From Pseudomonas mohnii (lineage in GTDB: Bacteria > Pseudomonadota > Gammaproteobacteria > Pseudomonadales > Pseudomonadaceae), in assembly GCF_900105115.1 (NCBI RefSeq), contig NZ_FNRV01000001.1, forward strand, positions 4,820,501-4,884,500: a stretch of DNA of 64,000 bases. Direction: 5' to 3'. The number at the start of each line of letters is the position of its first letter. Positions within the stretch are counted from its first letter, which is position 1. A program made the translations under genes and the position numbers. Below the pieces are notes generated by a model. That model was not told the origin of the DNA. It saw only the letters and a list, made by a program, of their open reading frames with translations, and did not search any database. This document shows, one piece after another, positions 5,849-42,028 of this stretch.

Positions 5849-6199
5849 TATTCAATCCCTAAGAACCAATATGAGCGCTTGTGGCGCAGAATTATTGTTA
5901 CTGGTGAGCGTAAGACTTAATGAAAGTAGCAATTTCCGAACCAGAGTGCCGAACAAGCGTTTTAAAAGGTGTTCAGGAAATTGCCGCAAGGGATTAGTGC
6001 ACGAAATTGGGCGACGTGGGAAGCCTGCACTTTTTTAGGTCGAATGTGGCGAAGCCCTATGGCGAGAGCGCTTGCTGTCGCTCGACTGCACAGCAGCCGT
6101 AAACGCGACAGTGACGTTTGACTGATGGGCCGCGTGGACAGATTCAAGGGCCGTTTCGCAGCCCGGCGGGAGCAAGCTCCCTCGCCTCAGGGAATGTGT
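5849..6199. other. Intergenic region: aotJ promoter area
   Basis: About 350 bases separate the 5' end of aotJ from the 3' end of quiP, both on the minus strand. The part next to aotJ (5850-5960) is AT-rich and should hold its promoter. The part near quiP has a short degenerate palindromic repeat (GGGAGCAAGCTCCC, about 6169-6182). I find no gene and no clear sigma-54 site. Confidence 0.5.
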
Positions 6200-8650
6200 T
6201 TACTTGCCAGGTGTCAGGGTCAATCGCTTGGTCCCGTACACCTTGTCAAAGTTCTGCGGCTGCATCGGCAAGCTCTGATACTGACCTTTCAGCCACGGCT
6301 CGATGCTGTTCAGGTAATTCGGGCTGGCCGGGTTACCGGACTGGCCGGTGGCATTCTGGCCCATCAGAGGTTCAGCCTGGCCGAAGTCGACGATAAAGCG
6401 CATGGCAGGCGCCAGCGTGGTGTTGAAGTCCTGGCCCCAGGCGAACGCAGCCGTGTTGAGCGTGGTGTGATCGCCGCCGGCCGGCAATGGACCGCGCACG
6501 GTTTGGCCACTGGCATTCTTCCATTCGTAGCGGTGCAGTTTGCCCCACTGCCAGGCTTTGTGGTCGCCGCCCAGCTGGCTGTCCCCGGCGCTGATCGCCG
6601 CTGCCAGGCTGCGGGCCAAGATCGCCGGTTTGTCTTCTTTCTGCGCGGTGCGCACGTCATCCCAAAACGGGCTGTCTTCGCGGCCCAGCAGGTGATCGGC
6701 CTGCGCGGCATAGGACAACTTGCCGTTGGCGATAAAGGCCTTCCATGCCGGACTGCTTTCTGGCCCCAGTTCATCAAGGAAAATCTGCTTGGCGCTTTCC
6801 TGCAGGAACAGCTCGTAGATCGCCGCATCGGCGGAGGTCGGGCTGAGTTTGCCATCGAACGCCATCAAGCGGGTGAACGCTTCGCGTGCCTTGGCTCCAT
6901 CCGCTGCGGGCAAGGCCGCGATGGCTTGTTTGAGCGGTTGGGACATGCCCGGCGCTGCGAACATTTTCTTTAATTTGGCGGCGAAGGTGGTGGTCTGGTC
7001 GTACTGCATCGCGATCAGGCTGCGGGTGTCATGCTTGCCCACCCCGGCCAGCTCAGCCAGACGTTCGCCGCGTTCCGGCGCCGACCAGGAATTGGACAGC
7101 TGCATGCCGTAGCCATGGGGAATGACCCGTTGGTTCGCGGTGCCTAGCCAGCCTTGGGCCGGGTCCTGATCGTAGGGGTGCAACATCGGGTCGGCATAGC
7201 CATCCCAGTCGTAGCGACCTTCCCAGCCTGGCGAGGGCAACAGGCCTTCGCCTTCGCGACGGTTCGGGTAGCGACCGGTGACTTGCCAGCCGATGTTGCT
7301 GGCATCGGCAAACACCAGGTTCAGCGCAATGGCGCGGATCTCTCGGCTGGCGTCCGACGCCTTCTCGACATTCTGCGCGCGGGACAGGTCAAAAAACGCG
7401 TCCAGGGTTTTGTCATCGGTGAAGCTCGGCGTCTGCAAGGCCAGGCCGAACCCGCTGCCCTGGGCAAGCCCCTGAGCGCTGTTGAGCAGGGGGCCGTGGC
7501 GGGTTTCGTACACCGCTTCGCGAATCGGCCGCTGGCCTTTGACGAAATAGGTTTCGTTGCGCACCACCGCCGGCTGCCATTTGCCGCCGTTTTCGTAGAC
7601 CAGGCCATTGCCCTGGCGTTTGATTTTTTCCAGGAACAGGTCCTGGTTGTCACCCATGACGCTGGTCGTGCTCCACGCGACCTTGCCGTTGAACCCGCCG
7701 AGCACCATCGGCAACCCGGGGATGGTCACGCCGGATGCCTGGTATTTCGGTGCGCGAATCTGCACATAGCTGAACAACGATGGCACGCCCATCGGCCCAT
7801 GGCTGTCGCTGGCCAGCAGGCTCTTGCCGCTGCGGCTGCGTTGCGGGGCAATGGCCCAGTTGTTCGATGAAGTGGCGCCGAGCAGATTCAGCTCGGCGAG
7901 CTGGCTCGTGGCTTTGCTGATTTCAGCCAGTCCCGGTACTTGCCCGTTGAGTTTGATGCCTTGCAGCTTTTCGCTTTCGGCCACTGGCAATTGTTCATCG
8001 GGGGCGGAAGGGGTCAGCCATGGCAGTTTGTCGGTGGAGACCGTTTGGGCCAGCACCAGCGCGGAGATCTCTTCGGGCAGGTTGGCTGACTGACTGAAGT
8101 TGAGCAGGCAGAAAATCAGCGCCGAGTCTTCCGGTTGCCAGTATTCAGGTTTATAGCCGCTGGCGGCGAGGTCCGCCGGCAGCTTGTCGCGGTAGCGGAA
8201 CAGGTAAGCGTTAACCCCGCGGGCATAGACTTCGAAGAAGCGCTTGAGGCGTGGCGACGATGCCTTATAGAGCTCGCCGGCGCTTTTCTTCAGATTGACC
8301 GCGCGCATGTAGCGGTCGGCGTCCAGCAGGTCCGAACCGTGCATCTCGGCCAGACGACCCTGGGCCAGCAAGCGCAAGGTGACCATTTGCGTGATGCGGT
8401 CGCTGGCGTGCACATAGCCGAGGGTGAACAGTGCGTCGTGGAAGCTGCTGCTTTCGATCAGCGGCATGCCCATGGCATTGCGGCGTACCGAAACGTTCTG
8501 CGCCAGGCCTTTGAGCGGCTGTACGCCGGAGGTCGGCGGGACGGTGTCCTGTGCGTTGAAGCTCTGACAGCCGGTCAGGCTCAAAACACCTGCAACTGCT
8601 GCGGCAACGCCGAACCGGGGTAGAAAATGTGTAAGGGCTGGCGAGGCCAT
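6200..8650 (-). CDS. quiP: Acyl-homoserine lactone acylase / penicillin acylase family protein
   Basis: The 816-residue product is an Ntn-hydrolase of the penicillin acylase family. It has a signal sequence with a possible lipobox (LSLTGC), an alpha-chain segment, then the beta-chain nucleophile at S-S-N-N-W-A-I-A-P near residue 261, where autocleavage should create an N-terminal Ser. [13 protein letters not shown] and the C-terminal GGDHTTLN region are also family-like. ATG 8650 is chosen because CAGGAG lies 7-8 bases upstream. It probably hydrolyses long-chain AHL signals or other amides in the periplasm. The quiP name rests on gene order shared with PAO1 (downstream SEC-C, OmpA, dinG, pdxH). 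Confidence 0.85.
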
Positions 8651-8840
8651 GGCAAAGCTCCTGCGGGGCGGTAACGTCAGTAAAGGCGCTACGTTAGTGA
8701 GCAGGAGGTGGCCGCGCAAGCGGGCGGCAAGGTTATTTCAGGTTTTGTCCGAGATCCCGTTTGCATTCGATGGCTTGCCACTGGCCGGGGCCGATGTTGA
8801 AGTGCAGGAAATCAACTGACCTGGCGTGAGAAGAGCGAGC

Positions 8841-9398
8841 ATGGAGCTTGAGAAAAACGCGACACTGATCATCATCGATCAGCAAAAAGGCATCCTTCAC
8901 CCCAGACTCGGCCGGCGCAACAATCCTCAGGCCGAAGATCGCATGCTGGCGCTCTTGGGCCACTGGCGTCGCAGCGGGCGGCCGATCATTCATGTGCAAC
9001 ACCTGTCCCGCTCGGAGGACTCGGTGTTCTGGCCACAACAATCGGGCGTCGAATTTCAGGAGCGGTTTCAGCCATTGCCAAGCGAGCGACTGATTCAAAA
9101 ACAGGTGCCGGATGCGTTTTGCTCGACGGGGCTGGAGGCGTTTTTGCGAGAAACGGGAGTCGAACAATTGATCATCGTCGGCGTGGCGACCCACAACTCC
9201 GTGGAGTCCACGGCGCGTACCGCAGGCAATCTGGGGTTCGATACGTGGGTGGCGGAGGACGCGTGTTTTACCTTCGACAAGGTCGACTTTTTTGGGCATG
9301 CCCGTTCAGCCGAAGAGGTACACGGGATGTCGCTGGGGAATTTGCATGGCGAGTATGCGACGGTGGTCAATTCGGCGCAGATATTGATGGCCGATTGA
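8841..9398 (+). CDS. Isochorismatase-like hydrolase lacking the usual Cys
   Basis: A 185-residue cytoplasmic protein of the isochorismatase-like superfamily. The catalytic Asp is in LIIIDQQKG near residue 13 and the catalytic Lys in IQKQVPDAF. At the nucleophile position the sequence reads VGVATHNSVESTART, with Ser where the family normally has Cys. The codon is TCC, so this is not a misread. ATG 8841 is preferred to GTG 8826, though neither has a strong ribosome site. It stands alone, divergent from quiP, and its substrate is unknown. Confidence 0.85.
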   Translation: MELEKNATLIIIDQQKGILHPRLGRRNNPQAEDRMLALLGHWRRSGRPIIHVQHLSRSEDSVFWPQQSGVEFQERFQPLPSERLIQKQVPDAFCSTGLEAFLRETGVEQLIIVGVATHNSVESTARTAGNLGFDTWVAEDACFTFDKVDFFGHARSAEEVHGMSLGNLHGEYATVVNSAQILMAD

Positions 9399-9402
9399 AA
9401 AC

Positions 9403-9480
9403 CTGTAGGAGCTGGCTTGCCAGCGAAGCGGTGCGTTATGACAAAACGCGTCGCATTGATCGCCAGCAAGCCGACTCCTA
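9403..9480. repeat. REP-type inverted repeat pair
   Basis: TAGGAGCTGGCTTGCCAGCGA near 9405 and the complementary TCGCCAGCAAGCCGACTCCTA near 9459 face each other across about 30 bases. This is the GGAGCTGGCTTGCCAGCGA flavour of the Pseudomonas intergenic repeat. It lies between convergent genes. Confidence 0.7.
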
Positions 9481-9501
9481 AAGGGAAATGGGTCTAACCC
9501 A

Positions 9502-9702
9502 TCAAGCGCCGTGGCACTTCTTGAACTTCTTGCCATTGCCACACGGGCAAGGGTCATTGCGGCCAACGTCTTTCAGGGCGTTGCGCACCGGTTCCTGGTG
9601 GGCGTGGCCGCAGTTCGGGCCGTGGACATGGCCATGGTCGTGATCATGGTGGTCGTGATCGTGGTTGCAGTCTGGGCCATGTACATGGGGTTGCTGGGTC
9701 AT
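9502..9702 (-). CDS. SEC-C motif, His-rich small protein
   Basis: A 66-residue protein. Residues 6-37 are a metal-ligand-like run rich in His, Asp, Cys and Gly ([20 protein letters not shown]), and the C-terminus is a SEC-C zinc motif ([17 protein letters not shown]). The first part resembles metallochaperone or metal-storage tails; the second is the zinc knuckle seen in SecA and YchJ. An upstream GGAG supports ATG 9702. It is 5 bases after the LEA-type gene and therefore co-transcribed. A zinc or nickel binding role is inference. Confidence 0.88.
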
Positions 9703-34484: not shown

Positions 34485-35612
34485 TTACTGAGGCGAAACT
34501 TCAGTTTTAGGTTTACCGAAGTGCCACTCGTAAACCACGAACTTGAAGTCTTTCAGGTCGCCCTTGGCGTCGAAGCTCAGGTCGCCAGTTGGAGTCTTGA
34601 AAGAGCCTGCGTGGATGGCAGCAGCCACTTTGGCAGTGTCTTCGCTCTTGGCGGCAGCGATACCACCGGCAATGACTTCAACAGCCGAGTAGGCCGGGAA
34701 CACGAACGGACCGCTTGGATCTTCTTTCTTGGCCTTGAACGCATCAGCCAGGGCAACGTTGGCCGGGTCCTGGTCGAAGGATTTAGGCAGGGTCACCAGC
34801 AGGCCTTCGGAAGCGTCCTTGGCGATCTGCGAAATGGAGTCGTTACCCACGCCTTCCGGACCCATGAACTTGGCCTTCAGGCCTTTTTCCTGGGATTGAC
34901 GCAGGATCAGACCCAGCTCCGGGTGGTAGCCGCCGTAGTAGACGAAGTCGACGTTGGCTTGCTTGAGCTTGGAGATCATCGAAGAGAAGTCTTTGTCGCC
35001 CGCGTTGATGCCTTCGAATACGGCAACCTTGACGCCTTTCTTCTCGAGGGTCTGTTTCACGGCGGTGGCGATGCCTTCACCGTATTGCTGTTTGTCGTGC
35101 AGCACAGCAACGATTTTCGGTTTTACGTGATCGGCAATGTAGTTACCGGCGGCAGGGCCCTGGGCGCTGTCCAGACCGATGGTGCGGAACACCATTTTGT
35201 AACCACGGGCGGTGATGTCCGGGCTGGTGGCAGCCGGGGTGATCATGATCACGCCTTCGTCTTCGTAGATGTCCGAAGCCGGTTGAGTGGAGCTGGAGCA
35301 CAGGTGGCCAACCACGAACTTCACGCCGTCGTTGACGACTTTGTTCGCGACCGCGACCGCTTGTTTTGGATCACAGGCGTCATCGTATTCAACGGCTTCG
35401 AGTTTCTTGCCGTCGACGCCGCCCTTGGCGTTGATTTGCTCGATGGCCATTTTGGCGCCACTGAACTGCATGTCGCCGTATTGGGCTACAGGGCCGGTTT
35501 TAGGGCCGGCGATGCCGATCTTGATGGTGTCAGCTGCGAACGAATGGCTGGCAACCCCGGCCAGAACCATAGCGGCAAACAGTTTGGAAATCTGCTTAGT
35601 AGCCTTAGTCAT
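34485..35612 (-). CDS. braC: Leu/Ile/Val/Ala/Thr-binding periplasmic protein
   Basis: A 375-residue solute-binding protein of the Leu/Ile/Val family. Signal peptide ends SHSFA before ADTIKIGIAGPKTGPVAQYG. Type I fold features: GAKMAIEQINAKGG, EYDDACDPKQAVAVANKVV with a Cys that pairs with the later CSSSTQPAS, and YYGGYHPELGLILRQ. GGAG is placed 5-8 bases before ATG 35612. Highly expressed relative to braDEFG through the attenuator. It is the periplasmic receptor of the system. Confidence 0.97.
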   Translation of the reverse strand: MTKATKQISKLFAAMVLAGVASHSFAADTIKIGIAGPKTGPVAQYGDMQFSGAKMAIEQINAKGGVDGKKLEAVEYDDACDPKQAVAVANKVVNDGVKFVVGHLCSSSTQPASDIYEDEGVIMITPAATSPDITARGYKMVFRTIGLDSAQGPAAGNYIADHVKPKIVAVLHDKQQYGEGIATAVKQTLEKKGVKVAVFEGINAGDKDFSSMISKLKQANVDFVYYGGYHPELGLILRQSQEKGLKAKFMGPEGVGNDSISQIAKDASEGLLVTLPKSFDQDPANVALADAFKAKKEDPSGPFVFPAYSAVEVIAGGIAAAKSEDTAKVAAAIHAGSFKTPTGDLSFDAKGDLKDFKFVVYEWHFGKPKTEVSPQ

Positions 35613-35964
35613 AGTGCTCCACTCTTACTGTTGTATTTTTTATAGTCCTGGCGCCTTGGGCGGCAGAACCGGGTCAGATATCCACGACATCCCCCGGAAA
35701 ATGCCCCTCGGCAACTGTACCGGTACAGTGTAGAGCGCCGATTGTCAGCCTGGGAAGCTGGCGGCGGGGGGCAAAACTTTGGGGTGTCGCTTTTTTGAAA
35801 GAAAAAGACAGAATTGCGGCGGGACTTTGGAGTGCTTATAGCCAGATTCCGTTCATTCCTTGGCGTTCCTGCTCTTTTCATTCGGTGACTCAATGTGCAA
35901 CTGGGTTTTTCTATCAGGATCACCGACGTTATCATTGCGTCGATTTCTTATCCGGACAGGACCC
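35613..35964. promoter_or_regulatory. braC upstream region with a perfect palindrome
   Basis: About 350 bases separate braC from the divergent DUF2288-type gene. At 35714-35729 it holds ACTGTACCGGTACAGT, a perfect 16-base palindrome about 100 bases before braC. The rest is without recognisable gene; it carries the promoters of both neighbours. Operators of this shape are bound by dimeric regulators, possibly of the GntR/MocR type, but the cognate protein is not identified. Confidence 0.55.
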
Positions 35965-36270
35965 ATGACTCAAGAACCTAGCACCCTCTATGCCAAGCTG
36001 CTTGGTGAAACTGCATCTATTACCTGGAAGGAGTTGGAGCCGTTCTTTGCCAAGGGTGCCCTATTGTGGGTCGACCCCGGTCTGGATTTGATCGCCGCCG
36101 CCGAAGCCGTGGCCACCGATGAGGGGGAGAAAGTGGCTGCCTGGCTGGCTGCCGATCAGCTCGCCAAGCTGTCTGAAACGCGGGCGCTGGATCTGTTTGA
36201 ACGTGATCCCGAGTTGTGGGCGGTGGTCGTTTCGCCGTGGATAATGATCCAGGAAAGGGCAAAGCCATAA
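35965..36270 (+). CDS. DUF2288-type small protein
   Basis: A 101-residue soluble protein: TLYAKLLGETASITWKELEPFFAKG, DLIAAAEAVATDEGEKVAAWLA and ELWAVVVSPWIMIQE match the DUF2288 family as I remember it, found in proteobacteria and cyanobacteria with no assigned role. ATG 35965 is used; GGACAGGA provides a ribosome site about 5 bases upstream. It lies next to bra as in PAO1. Confidence 0.82.
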   Translation: MTQEPSTLYAKLLGETASITWKELEPFFAKGALLWVDPGLDLIAAAEAVATDEGEKVAAWLAADQLAKLSETRALDLFERDPELWAVVVSPWIMIQERAKP

Positions 36271-36460
36271 ATGCCTGCACTTGTTTGGTGCGTGGCGGTG
36301 TCGGTTAAAAGTGTGTAGGCGAGTAGCGTGATGGCACGTTGCCGTAGAGAAAGGCCACAGCCTCACGGTGACGTAAACGTAACGGGAACAGTTAAGTGAG
36401 CAGCCGAATGGCTGCTCAATTGTTTCTGGATGTTGAGATTTGTGTGGCGTGCAATGCCGT

Positions 36461-36530
36461 CATCGCGAGCAGGCTCGCTCCCACAGGTTTCCGTTGGCTC
36501 GGATACTGTGGCAGCGAGCCTGCTCGCGAT
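36461..36530. repeat. REP-type palindrome pair
   Basis: CATCGCGAGCAGGCTCGCTCC (less its last base) near 36461 and the inverse GCAGCGAGCCTGCTCGCGAT ending at 36530 face each other about 20 bases apart, between convergent genes and just before the tubulin-like gene's 3' end. Confidence 0.8.
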
Positions 36531-36556
36531 TGGCCACGACGCGGTTTGCGCCGGTC

Positions 36557-38761
36557 TTAGTAAGTGGTTTTACCCGTGTGGTTATTCAGCGAAATGACCT
36601 TGGTCTTGCCGATGCGGTGGCGGTAGATCTCGCGCAGGTATTTGATGGCTTTTTTCACGCAATCCCGGGACAGGCGAATGTCGTTGATCGAGACGAACTT
36701 GTCCTTGTCGTTGATCAGTTCACGATACTTTTTCTCATACATCGGCTTGATCGCGTACCAGTTGGTATCAAGGATCTTGGCCGGGTTCTCGAACTCGTTG
36801 AGCAGGTCGTCGATCAAGCCTTCGTCGAAGTGATCATGGATGATGAAGTCCAGTATCGAGTTGTCGAGGGTCTCATCGAAGCGGTACGGGTTTTTTGCAA
36901 AGCAACGCTTGATGAATGCAACGATCAGCGTCAGGAAGTCGTCCGACAGGCATGGGCTCTTGGCGATCAGCGTGGTCAGGGACAGGTTGGCCGAGGCGCC
37001 GATCACCAGTGCATAGCGCTTGAGCGTGGTGTTGGGGAACAGGCTGTTGAGGTGGGTCTTCAACCGGTTCAGGTCCATGTAGGACAGCTTGTAGTCCTTC
37101 GGCAGGGAAACGATCGACACCACCGACGAGCAATTCTTGAAGAAGTGCAGGTCGTGCAGCGCGGCCGCGTCATACCCCGAGTTCTTGTACTGCTCCAGCG
37201 ATGCCCGATAGCGCTTGGACTCAATGGGCAACAGGCTGATGCCTTCGATGGCCTGTGTGACCTTGTTGAAGTGTGGCAGGTCGATGGAGCGGAAGAACAG
37301 GTCGTCGATGTTCAGGCGCTGCGGCTCTTTCTCGAACACCTTGAATTTGTCGCTGGTCGGCGGCGGGGATTCCGGCACCACGGATTCGGCGTAGGCGATG
37401 GCCACCGGGCCGGCCAGGCTCATGAACAGGTCGTTGGCATCGAGGCGAATGGTCTCGCCGATGTCGATGCCGGCACGACGGAAATAGTTCTGGTCGTAGT
37501 CGGTCGTTACCGCTTGTGCCGTCAGAATGTTGAAAATCTGTTGTGAGATGTATTGGTTGGCGTGCTTTTCCATGGCATTGACATCAATGTTCTGGATATT
37601 GCCGTCATCGCTCTCTTCGGCGTAACGCATGATGTCGTTGGAGATCAGCATCATGGCATTCCATGGGCGGATACGGCCCATGACGCTGGCTTCGCTGCTG
37701 TCCTCGTTGGCGAAGTTGTAGGAGAAGTCCCACTCTTCCGACAGGTATTTGCACAACAGGCGACCGGCGTTGATATGCAAGGCTTCAGACATTTCGCTGC
37801 GATGATCGGAAATGTTCGGCAACACGCAGATGCCGCTGGTGAAAATCGGTTCGAAGACGAAGGAATGACCACTCTTGCCGTCGTGCTCGTCCATCGGCTT
37901 GGTGTCGAACGTCTTGTTCATGTACGAGTGCTGCTGGGCCAGGCCGAACTCCGAAGCCATGCCCGAACCGGTACCGCCGCCGGCACTGAAAATCGAGAAA
38001 TACAGGCGCGACTGGTTGGCCTTGATGCCACAGCTGTCGATCAGGTACGAGTGAATCATTTTCCAGTCCGGGCTGGAGAAACGCTGGGTGTCCTTGTTGA
38101 GGATGATCTTGGCCAGGTACTGACCGAGGATCGGCGCGTTACCAGCGCCACCGGCGTGGACTTCCGACAAGTCCATGATTTTCATTTTGCTGTAGTCGCG
38201 CAGAAACCCGCTTTTTTCGCCCTTGCGCGAGAAACGGATACGGCCGGCGATGTCTTTGTCCAGGTCGCCGAGCATGACCAGTGGTTCTACCAGGAACACC
38301 GGTTTGGTGGCCTTGTTCGGCCCCAGGCGCAGGTTGTTGCGAATCCATTGGGCCGGGCTGTAGCCCTTTTCGGCAAAGCGCTTGTCCGGCGACAGGCGAT
38401 CTTCGTTGTTGAATTCGTTGAGATAGAACTTGCGGGCGTTGTACACCAGCTCCGCGACATCCAGCGCGATGTTCGAGCCGCAACGACCCAGGCCGATCAG
38501 GCATACCGACGGGAATTCCTGATCGTTGTGCTGTTCGTTATCGCCTTCCAGATGCGACGGGCGCGGGAACACCATGTCGCGCAGGCCATCGAGGTTGTCG
38601 AGGATACGGTCAGTATTGGTTTCGGTGAAATACAGGTATTGCTGGGTCGCCAGCGGGCGGGACGGGAGCAATGGCTTCGACGGCATTGGGGCGGGGCTGT
38701 TCGCCGCAGGGCTCAACGTCAGGTCGGATACCACAGGGGCCGGATTGTTTTTAGAAGTCAT
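36557..38761 (-). CDS. Tubulin/FtsZ-superfamily GTPase, divergent
   Basis: A 734-residue protein with the hallmark loops of tubulins. A glycine loop T1 at VCLIGLGRCGSNIALD (residues 90-97), a T3-like segment VHAGGAGNAPILGQYL (201-215), the T4 signature SAGGGTGSGMAS (259-270), an S6/H7 junction MLISNDIMRY (371-380, compare FtsZ PND), a long H7-like helix AMEKHANQYISQQIF, and a T7-like loop RLDANDLFMSLAG (D441, D444). The N-terminal 80 residues are Pro/Ser-rich; about 280 residues follow T7, longer than in FtsZ. ATG 38761 has no strong ribosome site. No adjacent partner gene. It is not FtsZ (which lies in the dcw cluster) and not phage-type by context. GTPase and polymer formation are inferred. 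Confidence 0.85.
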   Translation of the reverse strand: MTSKNNPAPVVSDLTLSPAANSPAPMPSKPLLPSRPLATQQYLYFTETNTDRILDNLDGLRDMVFPRPSHLEGDNEQHNDQEFPSVCLIGLGRCGSNIALDVAELVYNARKFYLNEFNNEDRLSPDKRFAEKGYSPAQWIRNNLRLGPNKATKPVFLVEPLVMLGDLDKDIAGRIRFSRKGEKSGFLRDYSKMKIMDLSEVHAGGAGNAPILGQYLAKIILNKDTQRFSSPDWKMIHSYLIDSCGIKANQSRLYFSIFSAGGGTGSGMASEFGLAQQHSYMNKTFDTKPMDEHDGKSGHSFVFEPIFTSGICVLPNISDHRSEMSEALHINAGRLLCKYLSEEWDFSYNFANEDSSEASVMGRIRPWNAMMLISNDIMRYAEESDDGNIQNIDVNAMEKHANQYISQQIFNILTAQAVTTDYDQNYFRRAGIDIGETIRLDANDLFMSLAGPVAIAYAESVVPESPPPTSDKFKVFEKEPQRLNIDDLFFRSIDLPHFNKVTQAIEGISLLPIESKRYRASLEQYKNSGYDAAALHDLHFFKNCSSVVSIVSLPKDYKLSYMDLNRLKTHLNSLFPNTTLKRYALVIGASANLSLTTLIAKSPCLSDDFLTLIVAFIKRCFAKNPYRFDETLDNSILDFIIHDHFDEGLIDDLLNEFENPAKILDTNWYAIKPMYEKKYRELINDKDKFVSINDIRLSRDCVKKAIKYLREIYRHRIGKTKVISLNNHTGKTTY

Positions 38762-38958
38762 TGTTCGCCATGTACCTGGGCTGGTGGTCGGGCGACTCGC
38801 TGTCGTCGAACCGTCACGGAATGAGAACTCGCGTCTTTTATCAGCGCGTATTTGTCCCAAGCTTCAGAGCCATGGCCTGAATGTCGCTCGGGGGAATCCT
38901 TTCCTAAGTCATGATGAATCGGCCAATATTCAACGTTCTTTAATCAAAAGGAGGCCAA

Positions 38959-39855
38959 ATGATGTCAACGCTACCTTCGTTGGGATTTGCCGGGGTCGGC
39001 CTGATGGGCCTGCCTATGTGCAAGCGCCTGCTTGCGGCGGGTTTTCCGCTGACGGTGTGGAACCGCAATCCGGCCAAGTGCGCGCCGCTGGTCCAGGCTG
39101 GGGCGCGCCAGGTCGCCACGCCTGCCGAGCTATGCCAACACGCTGATGTGGTGATGTTGTGCCTGGCCGATACCCCGGTCGTCCGTGAGGTGGTTTTCGG
39201 TGCGGCGGGGATTGTCGAAGGGGCGAAAAGCGGTCAGTTGCTGGTGGATTTTTCCAGCCTGGAACCGACTGCAACGCGGGAAATGGCCTCGGAGCTTGTC
39301 AGTAAAACCGGTATGGGTTGGCTGGATGCGCCGGTCTCCGGCGGCGTGGTCGGAGCCGAGTCCGGAAGCCTCGCGATCATGGTGGGCGGCGAGGCGGCGG
39401 CGCTTGATCGGGTCAAACCTGTCTTGTTGAGCCTTGGCCAGCGCGTGACGCACATGGGGGCCGTCGGGGCGGGGCAGGTGACCAAGGCCTGCAATCAAAT
39501 GATCGTGGCCTGCAACGCGCTGGTTATTGCTGAAGTGGTGGCGCTGGCGGAGCGCTCCGGTGTTGATGCGAGCCTGATCGCCGAGGCGCTGGCCGGTGGT
39601 TTTGCCGACTCAAAACCTTTGCAGATTCTCGGCCCGCAAATGGCCGACAGCCGTTTCGAACCGGTCAAATGGCACGTGCGAACCCTGCTCAAGGATCTGG
39701 ATACCGCGGTGAAGTTTTCCCGTGAGCAAGGCTCGGCAACGCCGATCAGCGGTCTGGCCGCGCAATTGATGCGATTGCATGGGAGCCAGGGCTTCCTGGA
39801 AAATGACCCGTCTACATTAGTGCAGTTGTACCGTGAACCAGACTCAACGGCGTAA
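38959..39855 (+). CDS. NAD(P)-dependent beta-hydroxyacid dehydrogenase
   Basis: A 298-residue enzyme of the 3-hydroxyisobutyrate dehydrogenase / tartronate semialdehyde reductase family. NAD motif LGFAGVGLMGLPMCKRL near residue 8, substrate site APVSGGVVGAESGSL near residue 119, catalytic Lys in AGQVTKACNQMIVA near residue 178. AAGGAGG lies 4 bases before ATG 38959 and 7 bases before ATG 38962, so the second is an equally good start. It is divergent from the tubulin-like gene. The exact substrate is unknown. Confidence 0.9.
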   Translation: MMSTLPSLGFAGVGLMGLPMCKRLLAAGFPLTVWNRNPAKCAPLVQAGARQVATPAELCQHADVVMLCLADTPVVREVVFGAAGIVEGAKSGQLLVDFSSLEPTATREMASELVSKTGMGWLDAPVSGGVVGAESGSLAIMVGGEAAALDRVKPVLLSLGQRVTHMGAVGAGQVTKACNQMIVACNALVIAEVVALAERSGVDASLIAEALAGGFADSKPLQILGPQMADSRFEPVKWHVRTLLKDLDTAVKFSREQGSATPISGLAAQLMRLHGSQGFLENDPSTLVQLYREPDSTA

Positions 39856-42028
39856 CGGTGTATGCGTGCTTGCGCTGGTTGATCTCGTCCAGCACCGGGC
39901 GTAAATCATTGAGGGGCACCGGGCGGCTTAGCAGGTACCCCTGAACAAAGTCACAGCCGTGGCGTTCGAGAAACTGGTATTGCTCGAACGTTTCGACGCC
40001 CTCGGTGACCACGTCCAGATGCAGTGTGTGGGCCATGACGATAATGGCCTGGACGATCTCCATGTCCTGGGCGGATTTGGGGATGTCGATAATGAATGAT
40101 CGATCGATCTTCAGCGTGTTGAGTGGCAAGCGTTTGAGGTAGGCCAGGGACGAGTAACCGGTGCCGAAGTCATCGATCGACAGCGACACGCCGAGGGCGC
40201 GAATCTGCTGCAGCAATACCAGCGTTTCGGTGATGTTGCCCATCAATGCATTTTCAGTCACCTCCAGTTCCAGCCGCCTTGGCGCCACTGCGGCGCTGCG
40301 CAAGGCCTGTTCGATTTCCCCGGCCAGTTCCTCGCGAACCAGGCTCAGGGGCGAGCAATTCACGGCAATCTTCAGTTCATCGCAGCCCTGTCGTGACAAT
40401 TCGCCGAGGTCCTGGCACGCCTTGCGCAGCACCCATTTGTCCAGTTCGGTGATCAGGCCATTGGACTCGGCGAGGGCAATGAAACGATCCGGTGCGAGGA
40501 AACCGTGGACGGGATGCTGCCAGCGAATCAACGCTTCCAGTTTGCTGGCTTGGCCGGTTTTCAGGTCGTAGATTGGCTGGTAATAGAGCATCAGGCCGGT
40601 GTCTTCGCGCAGGGCATGGCGCAGTTCTTCTTCCAGTTGCAGTTCCAGCGTGGCCCGGGCCTTGAGATTGGCGCTGAAAAAATTCAAGCCGTTGCGGCCG
40701 CTGCCCTTGGACTGATACAGCGCCAAATCGGCATTTTTCAGCAGTTCTTCGCAAGTTTTTCCATCCTCCGGAAACAGGCTGATACCGATGCTGGTCGTCA
40801 TGACCATGCGCCGCCCGGCCAGCTCGATGGGGTCCTTCATTTTCAGCATGATGCGTTGTGCCATTTGTCGGGCTTCGTCCCGATCGTGCAGATCGATGAG
40901 GATGCAGAATTCATCGCCACCGAATCTCGCCACGACATCTTCGTGGCTGCGCACCGAGGCCTTGATGTGGCTGGCCAGTACCTTGAGCAGTTCGTCGCCC
41001 GCATCATGGCCCAGGCTGTCGTTGATCCGCTTGAAATGGTCAATGTCGAGGAACAGGACGGCAAGCATGCCACCTTCATGGGTTTTCTCGATGAGCTTCT
41101 CGGCGAAGATCTGATTGAAACCGCGTCGGTTGATCAGGCTGGTCAAGGCGTCGTAGTGCGCGACCTGTTGCAGGGAAACGCGTGCCTGGTCGAGTTGGCT
41201 GAGCAGCGAGTTCACCCGTTGCAGGTCATGATCCTTTTTTTGCAGTTTCTTGTCCGCCAGGGCCGCGCTGATGCAGCTGCCAATGATGAGCAGCGTCATG
41301 ACTGCGACAGTCACCCCCAATTGCAGGTGGTTGTGTTCCCCTGGTTGCGGCAGGACGGTGCCGCCGGGTAGCAACAGATTGAAAGCCGCCATACCCGTAA
41401 AGTGCATGCTGATGATGCCGGCCCCTATAACCAGGCTCGCGCTGTATTTGAACAACTGATGAAACATCCCGGTGCCGTTGCGCAAATGGCTGGCCAGTAA
41501 CAGCGCCGCCAGGCTGGCGCCTATCGCGATCAGGATGGAGAGCCCAAACAACACCGGCTGGTAATAGACCTTCGCTTGCGACTGCATGGCGCCCATGCCC
41601 ACGTAATGCATGGTCGCGATGCCCATGCCGATCCAGACCGAGGCTTTCAGGCATTGCCAAAAGCTCAGGGAGGGGCGACTGAGGGTGTACATCACCAGCC
41701 AGGAGGTGAGCAGGGCGATCAACAGGGACAACAAGGTGACGGGCAGTTGGAAATGAACATCGACCGGCACCTGGAACGCCAGCATGCCGATAAAGTGCAT
41801 GGCCCATATTCCGCCGGCCAGGCAGCCGGCACCGACCCAGCGCCACAGTCGTTGGGAGGAGAGGTTTTCCGCGTGGGCAACCCGTTCGGCCATGTCCAGT
41901 GTGGCAAAACTGCCGGCACAGGCGACCAGATAAGCCAGTAACACCAGAAAGGGGTCATGCATGCAGTTAAGTATGACCTGCCCGTTCACTGGTAGCTCGG
42001 TAATGAAATGCAGACCAAGCCAGTCCAT
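39812..42028 (-). CDS. MHYT-GGDEF-EAL cyclic-di-GMP signalling protein
   Basis: A 738-residue inner-membrane protein. The N-terminal seven-helix MHYT sensor (residues 20-235) shows three copies of the motif: AMHFIGM, TMHYVGM, SMHFTGM, thought to bind a metal and sense NO or oxygen. A GGDEF domain (RFGGDEFCILID) is intact but has no upstream RxxD inhibitory site (SHED instead). An EAL domain carries EALIRWQHP and DDFGTGYSSLAYLKRLP. Gene order beside rapA suggests the NbdA orthologue. It overlaps the 3' end of the dehydrogenase gene by 44 bases, tail to tail. Confidence 0.93.
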   Translation of the reverse strand: MDWLGLHFITELPVNGQVILNCMHDPFLVLLAYLVACAGSFATLDMAERVAHAENLSSQRLWRWVGAGCLAGGIWAMHFIGMLAFQVPVDVHFQLPVTLLSLLIALLTSWLVMYTLSRPSLSFWQCLKASVWIGMGIATMHYVGMGAMQSQAKVYYQPVLFGLSILIAIGASLAALLLASHLRNGTGMFHQLFKYSASLVIGAGIISMHFTGMAAFNLLLPGGTVLPQPGEHNHLQLGVTVAVMTLLIIGSCISAALADKKLQKKDHDLQRVNSLLSQLDQARVSLQQVAHYDALTSLINRRGFNQIFAEKLIEKTHEGGMLAVLFLDIDHFKRINDSLGHDAGDELLKVLASHIKASVRSHEDVVARFGGDEFCILIDLHDRDEARQMAQRIMLKMKDPIELAGRRMVMTTSIGISLFPEDGKTCEELLKNADLALYQSKGSGRNGLNFFSANLKARATLELQLEEELRHALREDTGLMLYYQPIYDLKTGQASKLEALIRWQHPVHGFLAPDRFIALAESNGLITELDKWVLRKACQDLGELSRQGCDELKIAVNCSPLSLVREELAGEIEQALRSAAVAPRRLELEVTENALMGNITETLVLLQQIRALGVSLSIDDFGTGYSSLAYLKRLPLNTLKIDRSFIIDIPKSAQDMEIVQAIIVMAHTLHLDVVTEGVETFEQYQFLERHGCDFVQGYLLSRPVPLNDLRPVLDEINQRKHAYTVTPLSLVHGTTALM

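Follow-up and report, generated by a model that had tools for sequence, protein, structure and literature searches.

The window analysed here, a stretch of 64,000 nucleotides from the Pseudomonas mohnii genome, carries a gene for a probable bacterial relative of tubulin at positions 36557..38761 of the minus strand, as judged from the motifs of the encoded protein. The protein can be assigned with high confidence to FtsZl2, a family that was named in 2010 as a probable tubulin relative and is present in many Pseudomonas genomes; it is not a new discovery. FtsZl2 is dispensable yet under very strong selection where it is present, a combination that opens its function to simple experiment. Should the protein polymerise, the bacterial tubulins would include one more that is chromosomal and outside cell division, and tubulin evolution would have a diverged outgroup.

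The gene consists of 734 codons and a stop codon and is defined by its open reading frame and by its homologues. The minus strand is open from 36557 to 38761 and the plus-strand reading of the same interval contains an internal stop, which confirms the 734-residue product predicted by the first-pass annotation. Translation from the ATG at 38761 yields these 734 residues and an in-frame TTG at 38860 would yield 767; across the homologue alignments there is almost no variation at M1 of the product that starts at the ATG. The conservation profile dips at residues 1-80, 451-485 and 631-665 and peaks at 541-630 and 666-720. The first of these regions is a variable N-terminal tail (38522..38761, minus strand), which had been described as an 80-residue Pro/Ser-rich extension. 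Its composition (11 prolines, 7 serines) upholds the proline-rich part of that description. Conservation is weak, but a conserved stretch does exist within it, as the consensus of the 62-sequence alignment introduced below retains YMYFTERD..RIL.NLD.LR..VFP at about residues 44-66. The second region is a variable linker (37307..37411, minus strand), after which the C-terminal region (residues 486-734; 36560..37306, minus strand) harbors the two strongly conserved blocks. A total of 290 residues was counted beyond the T7-like motif, close to the 280 or so reported earlier, and the predicted absence of a membrane segment was likewise supported, with a maximal 19-residue Kyte-Doolittle mean of 1.4. 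A REP-like palindrome (GCGAGCAGGCTCGC ... GCGAGCCTGCTCGCGA) is located at 36466-36535, directly beyond the stop codon.

Five short motifs of the tubulin superfamily were found exactly at the positions that the first-pass annotation had given, all encoded on the minus strand. The T1-like loop GLGRCGSN (residues 90-97; 38471..38494) was placed by motif position and by an alignment of 62 sequences, comprising the window protein and 61 others with 55-93% identity to it. The T3-like loop HAGGAGNAP (residues 202-210; 38132..38158) was set in register with GLGAGANP of FtsZ by eye, and hhalign also aligns it. The T4 loop GGGTGSG (residues 261-267; 37961..37981) is recognized by the 62-sequence alignment, by Pfam and by a census of DNA motifs, and the T6-like turn ISND (residues 373-376; 37634..37645) by the same alignment and by hhalign to Tubulin_2. 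The T7-like motif RLDAND (residues 439-444; 37430..37447) includes the LDAND at 440-444 noted before; it is seen in the 62-sequence alignment, and its register to FtsZ is a placement by hand that sets D441 and D444 on both Asp residues of NVDFAD in the host FtsZ and an Arg at the position of the FtsZ Asn. Residues G90, G92, R93-N97, H202-G205, G207-P210, G261-G267, I373-D376 and R439-D444 do not vary among the 62 sequences. In a larger set of 110 sequences R93 and G267 are merely nearly invariant, and both T7 aspartates are invariant in either set, so that the Gly and Asp residues of the loops are kept among orthologues. The motifs are spaced more widely than in the host FtsZ, with distances between motif starts of 112 versus 50 residues (T1-T3), 59 versus 38 (T3-T4), 112 versus 58 (T4-T6) and 67 versus 44 (T6-T7). 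Inserts between T1 and T4 are a trait of the FtsZl2 family and are present in the window protein.

As far as profile and alignment scores can tell, the link of FtsZl2 to tubulin is weak but consistent, and it appears weak outside the T4 loop. The Pfam Tubulin profile matched the window protein with E=0.0034 (18.1 bits) and 39 of the 62 members at E<=0.01 (best 3.1e-5), and all Pfam scores observed for the window protein and for ten members scanned singly lay under the curated cut-offs. Among these ten members, the best Tubulin stretch was T1 in four cases (profile from position 2) and T4 in six (profile about 109-151); the T1 and T4 pieces thus match the profile in the right order, in different members. 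Four of nine shuffles made, in which only the T4 loop with its five flanking residues at either end was left in place, served as controls. One of the four reached Tubulin (E=0.053, 14.2 bits), three remained unmatched, and two reached Tubulin_2 at E=0.06-0.07. As a shuffle that keeps the loop attained 14.2 bits, much of the 18.1 bits of the window protein may derive from this loop, whereas the top member scored 24.8 bits. A search of the same genome with PF00091 at E<=0.001 matched FtsZ alone. An HMM built from 31 FtsZ proteins failed to discriminate between FtsZl2 sequences and their reversed or shuffled versions; over 210 sequences the best score was -0.5 bits versus 0.6 for reversed and 3.5 for shuffled sequences. 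With hhalign, the family alignment scored 30.4 against the 31 FtsZ proteins and 31.1 against reversed FtsZ via the same glycine loop, and 26 of 27 other alignments formed a background of 12.5-25.5 (d19, with a score of 750, contains a fused FtsZl2 piece and was excluded). Three Tubulin_2 proteins gave 32.3 across just 22 columns, at the ISND turn, and comparison with a single FtsZ gave P=0.028, versus 0.31 for FtsA. No FtsZ or tubulin match was obtained in a sequence search of the PDB. Two AlphaFold2 models were unusable (pLDDT 44.1 and 45.0), and fold searches with these low-confidence models returned no significant PDB match. Given these controls and models, the tubulin assignment leans in part on the published HHpred result for FtsZl2 (E=0.0033; PMC2875224) and on the five ordered, invariant motifs.

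Makarova and Koonin defined FtsZl2 in 2010 on PFL_1302 of Pseudomonas fluorescens Pf-5, as a family with a C-terminal region of about 300 aa, without a coiled coil and without associated genes, and distinguished it from FtsZl1, which has a coiled coil and vWA, GTPase and OmpA partners (PMC2875224). The window protein shares with the family, as it is described there, the GGGTGSG loop, the T1-, T6- and T7-like motifs, a T1-T4 spacing longer than that of FtsZ, about 290 residues past T7, coexistence with an ordinary FtsZ, occurrence in Proteobacteria with a P. fluorescens type member, and the absence of consistent partner genes; in this comparison by description no difference from the published family was found. 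The earlier suggestion of a previously undescribed system therefore does not hold. A census with a degenerate DNA pattern for GGGTG[ST]G revealed three sites in the genome, which belong to FtsZ, the window gene and a phage-tail-like protein. Because only these three encode the loop, a search of a close relative for this motif would be expected to return the window gene, which on this ground is almost certainly the PFL_1302 orthologue. The third site is unsurprising, since a backward-pattern control gave seven sites. It lies at G000:C1:5199469 (L261) in the gene of a long coiled-coil, Gly/Ala-rich protein that looks like a phage tail tape measure, and is probably located in a prophage.

FtsZl1, equated with Tubulin_2 (PF13809) following the treatment in PMC9871819, is likewise a diverged superfamily member outside cell division. 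PF13809 matched 16 of the 62 FtsZl2 members weakly (best E=0.0012), but the window protein reached 16.5 bits against a cut-off of 27, and the ten members scanned reached at most 18.7. PMC9871819 takes up the 'FtsZ-like' group of Tubulin_2 but puts it to one side; the word Pseudomonas is absent from its text. Compared with the host FtsZ, the T1, T3, T4, T6 and T7 motifs follow in the same order, but FtsZl2 is about twice as long, has its loops 1.5 to 2.2 times further apart, lies outside the division cluster and is absent from many relatives. TubZ/RepX and the phage PhuZ tubulins are non-division bacterial tubulin relatives encoded by plasmid or phage genes. In contrast, FtsZl2 had no match in 72,556 plasmid records or 50,697 phage records, and no viral contig was confirmed in a close-relative scan; a plasmid or phage tubulin was rejected on these grounds, and the claim that the gene has no plasmid or phage setting was corroborated. 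The ordinary FtsZ of this genome is encoded at G000:C1:2389028 and FtsZl2 at 4857060, in agreement with a stand-alone chromosomal gene outside the cell-division cluster. In searches confined to open-access literature, no functional work on FtsZl2 or PFL_1302 came up.

Scoring of 7999 candidates yielded 669 homologues at E<=0.001. In the genus itself, 260 of the 398 genomes sampled had a match, broken copies counted. Within the order they were detected in 23 of 390 genomes (5 of 142 genera), within the class in 2 of 369 genomes including the genome of the window, and within the phylum in 5 of 299 genomes (2 of 153 genera). The family is thus patchy across Gammaproteobacteria. Among the best 120 matches per search, named holders include Cellvibrio, Rheinheimera, Arsukibacterium and Alkalimonas as well as Catenovulum, Echinimonas, Atopomonas and Ectopseudomonas, and the proposed restriction to pseudomonads had to be given up.

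Selection on FtsZl2 is strongly purifying. Against four close relatives dN/dS was 0.016-0.033, and in each comparison FtsZl2 ranked lowest among eight measured genes of the locus; together with the number of homologues, this identifies the open reading frame as more than a chance occurrence. Against five deeper relatives the ratio was 0.060-0.067 (L184, L186, L191) and 0.107-0.109 (L179, L180), where RapA had the lower value. The gene is cleanly absent from a near relative (L200) whose livK and RapA are 97% identical to those of the window. The flanks of this empty site align to positions 35555-36436 and 38963-39839 of the window, with about 60 bases between them versus about 2.5 kb in the window. 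Broken or truncated copies were found in 5 of 30 re-examined carriers (G622, G436, G726, G754 and G637) and a gene in two overlapping pieces in another (G444); these carriers had been picked because their genomes were small or their scores odd, and are not a fair sample. At L194 (about 6001-9570), a broken FtsZl2 continues in frame after an MHYT-GGDEF-EAL gene to form one open reading frame of about 1190 amino acids, and its other half follows separately. A midpoint-rooted FastTree was built on livK and RapA, using the 24 loci (of 43) in which both genes are present. FtsZl2 holders, broken copies and non-holders (the last chosen as such) are intermixed in it, a pattern that, judged by inspection, is expected from repeated loss. 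Gene calls at the loci are rough, and FtsZl2 in L182 and a remnant in L195 escaped the caller and were recovered by tblastn.

The immediate neighbors of the gene are a convergent open reading frame of 101 amino acids (35965..36270, plus strand), which we take to be DUF2288 and which occupies the same site where FtsZl2 is lacking, and a divergent gene for a 3-hydroxyisobutyrate dehydrogenase-like protein (38959..39855, plus strand); neither is considered part of the system. An MHYT-GGDEF-EAL gene (39812..42028, minus strand), an MFS gene and RapA follow past the dehydrogenase, and livKHMGF lies on the other side. The livK-RapA gene order is old in the family: livK, the 101-aa ORF, (dehydrogenase, TIM barrel), GGDEF(-EAL), (MFS) and RapA are kept with or without FtsZl2 (L200-L219). 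No consistently associated gene was detected across 35 FtsZl2 loci, whose neighbors follow lineage. A GGDEF domain is encoded within 5 kb in 16 of these loci, in MHYT-GGDEF-EAL, NMT1-GGDEF, Amt-PAS-GGDEF-EAL or PAS-GGDEF-EAL architectures, and in none of the other 19. Among 20 FtsZl2-free loci (18 of the same genus, two of another), 14 have, between livK and RapA, an MHYT-GGDEF-EAL or NMT1-GGDEF gene of full length, another three have partial GGDEF matches only and three have none; the use of a c-di-GMP partner as main evidence was rejected because these 14 carry the same gene types. The MHYT-GGDEF-EAL gene of the window is thus a neighbor by locus heritage and a partnership is not supported. 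An Amt-PAS-GGDEF-EAL gene directly downstream of FtsZl2 in five of nine loci of another genus, and a PAS-GGDEF-EAL gene two genes away in L166, are left unexplained by locus heritage and may retain a trace of a c-di-GMP link. The ammonium-transporter-PAS-GGDEF-EAL fusion measures about 1020-1040 amino acids (L169 10914-14027, also L170, L172, L175 and L197). Both loci from the most distant lineage detected encode a protein of 461-479 amino acids divergently from FtsZl2 (L176 164-1549, L177 3311-4750); the one copy scanned has no Pfam match.

For the fold, GTP binding, polymerisation and role of the protein we infer the following scheme. FtsZl2 would belong to the tubulin/FtsZ superfamily and, encoded on the chromosome, operate beside the ordinary FtsZ. 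Its N-terminal half (about residues 80-450) is predicted to bind GTP via T1, T3 and T4, and in a head-to-tail stack D441 and D444 of T7 would complete GTP hydrolysis in the next subunit, so that stacking could yield protofilaments that are dynamic. Past the variable linker, the conserved C-terminal part, about 250 residues long, may present a surface for partners or neighboring protofilaments, and the variable N-terminal tail may act as a disordered tether. On this view one gene would supply the cytoskeletal element, its partners would be encoded at other loci, and the benefit would come under some conditions only. Taken as a whole, the reading to which we incline, with modest confidence, is a filament protein that is driven by GTP, independent of division and useful in some conditions only, and whose conserved C-terminal region binds partners.

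The main rival to filament formation is a GTP switch without polymerisation, in which a protein with tubulin fold and GTP binding works as a monomer, dimer or scaffold and uses its C-terminal region as effector. Such a switch, which we hold possible but unlikely, would suit the wide loop spacing, the large C-terminal region with its invariant blocks and the Arg that replaces the T7 Asn. Nevertheless, T7 aspartates that show no variation in either alignment (62 and 110 sequences) would not obviously be needed by a protein that does not polymerise, and filaments were expected for the family by the authors of PMC2875224, since every superfamily member characterised up to that time had been seen to form them. 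That the glycine loops are coincidental and belong to an unrelated nucleotide-binding or scaffold protein appears improbable. The shuffle controls, in which the T4 loop alone can give weak Tubulin and Tubulin_2 scores, the failure of FtsZ profiles to separate the family from controls, and the absence of matches to solved structures by sequence or by predicted model would fit this explanation. It has to contend, however, with five invariant motifs in the right order, with a best member at 24.8 bits to Tubulin versus 14.2 for the single matching one of four controls, with T1 and T4 pieces that in different members fall on the profile in the right order, and with the published HHpred result. A role in c-di-GMP signalling, as effector or partner and linked to the neighboring GGDEF/EAL genes, would be in line with the 16 loci that have GGDEF in several architectures close by and with the adjoining fusions of the other genus and L166. 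It is very improbable in view of the 19 loci that have no such domain within 5 kb and the 14 FtsZl2-free loci with a full-length gene in the same livK-RapA interval; moreover, 15 same-genus genomes contained 29-66 GGDEF matches each, which makes chance neighbors likely. An accessory role in defence, such as against phages, would account for the patchy presence within the genus and class and for the clean empty site in a near relative. We consider it highly improbable, as there was no PADLOC match, the neighbors in the window are metabolic and core genes and not a defence island, the protein changes very slowly against close relatives, unlike arms-race genes, and the phage and plasmid records gave no match.

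Returning to the preferred division-independent filament, a more specific version of it is doubtful and is put forward tentatively: FtsZl2 could be a second polymer of free-living gammaproteobacteria with multiple contacts, forming bundles or tubes and not single protofilaments, whose loss is linked to niche. If this were true, loss of FtsZl2 would mark niches that do not need the polymer, and the near-frozen sequence and the invariant C-terminal blocks would reflect lateral plus longitudinal contacts. Against close relatives, the dN/dS of FtsZl2 lies below that of RapA.
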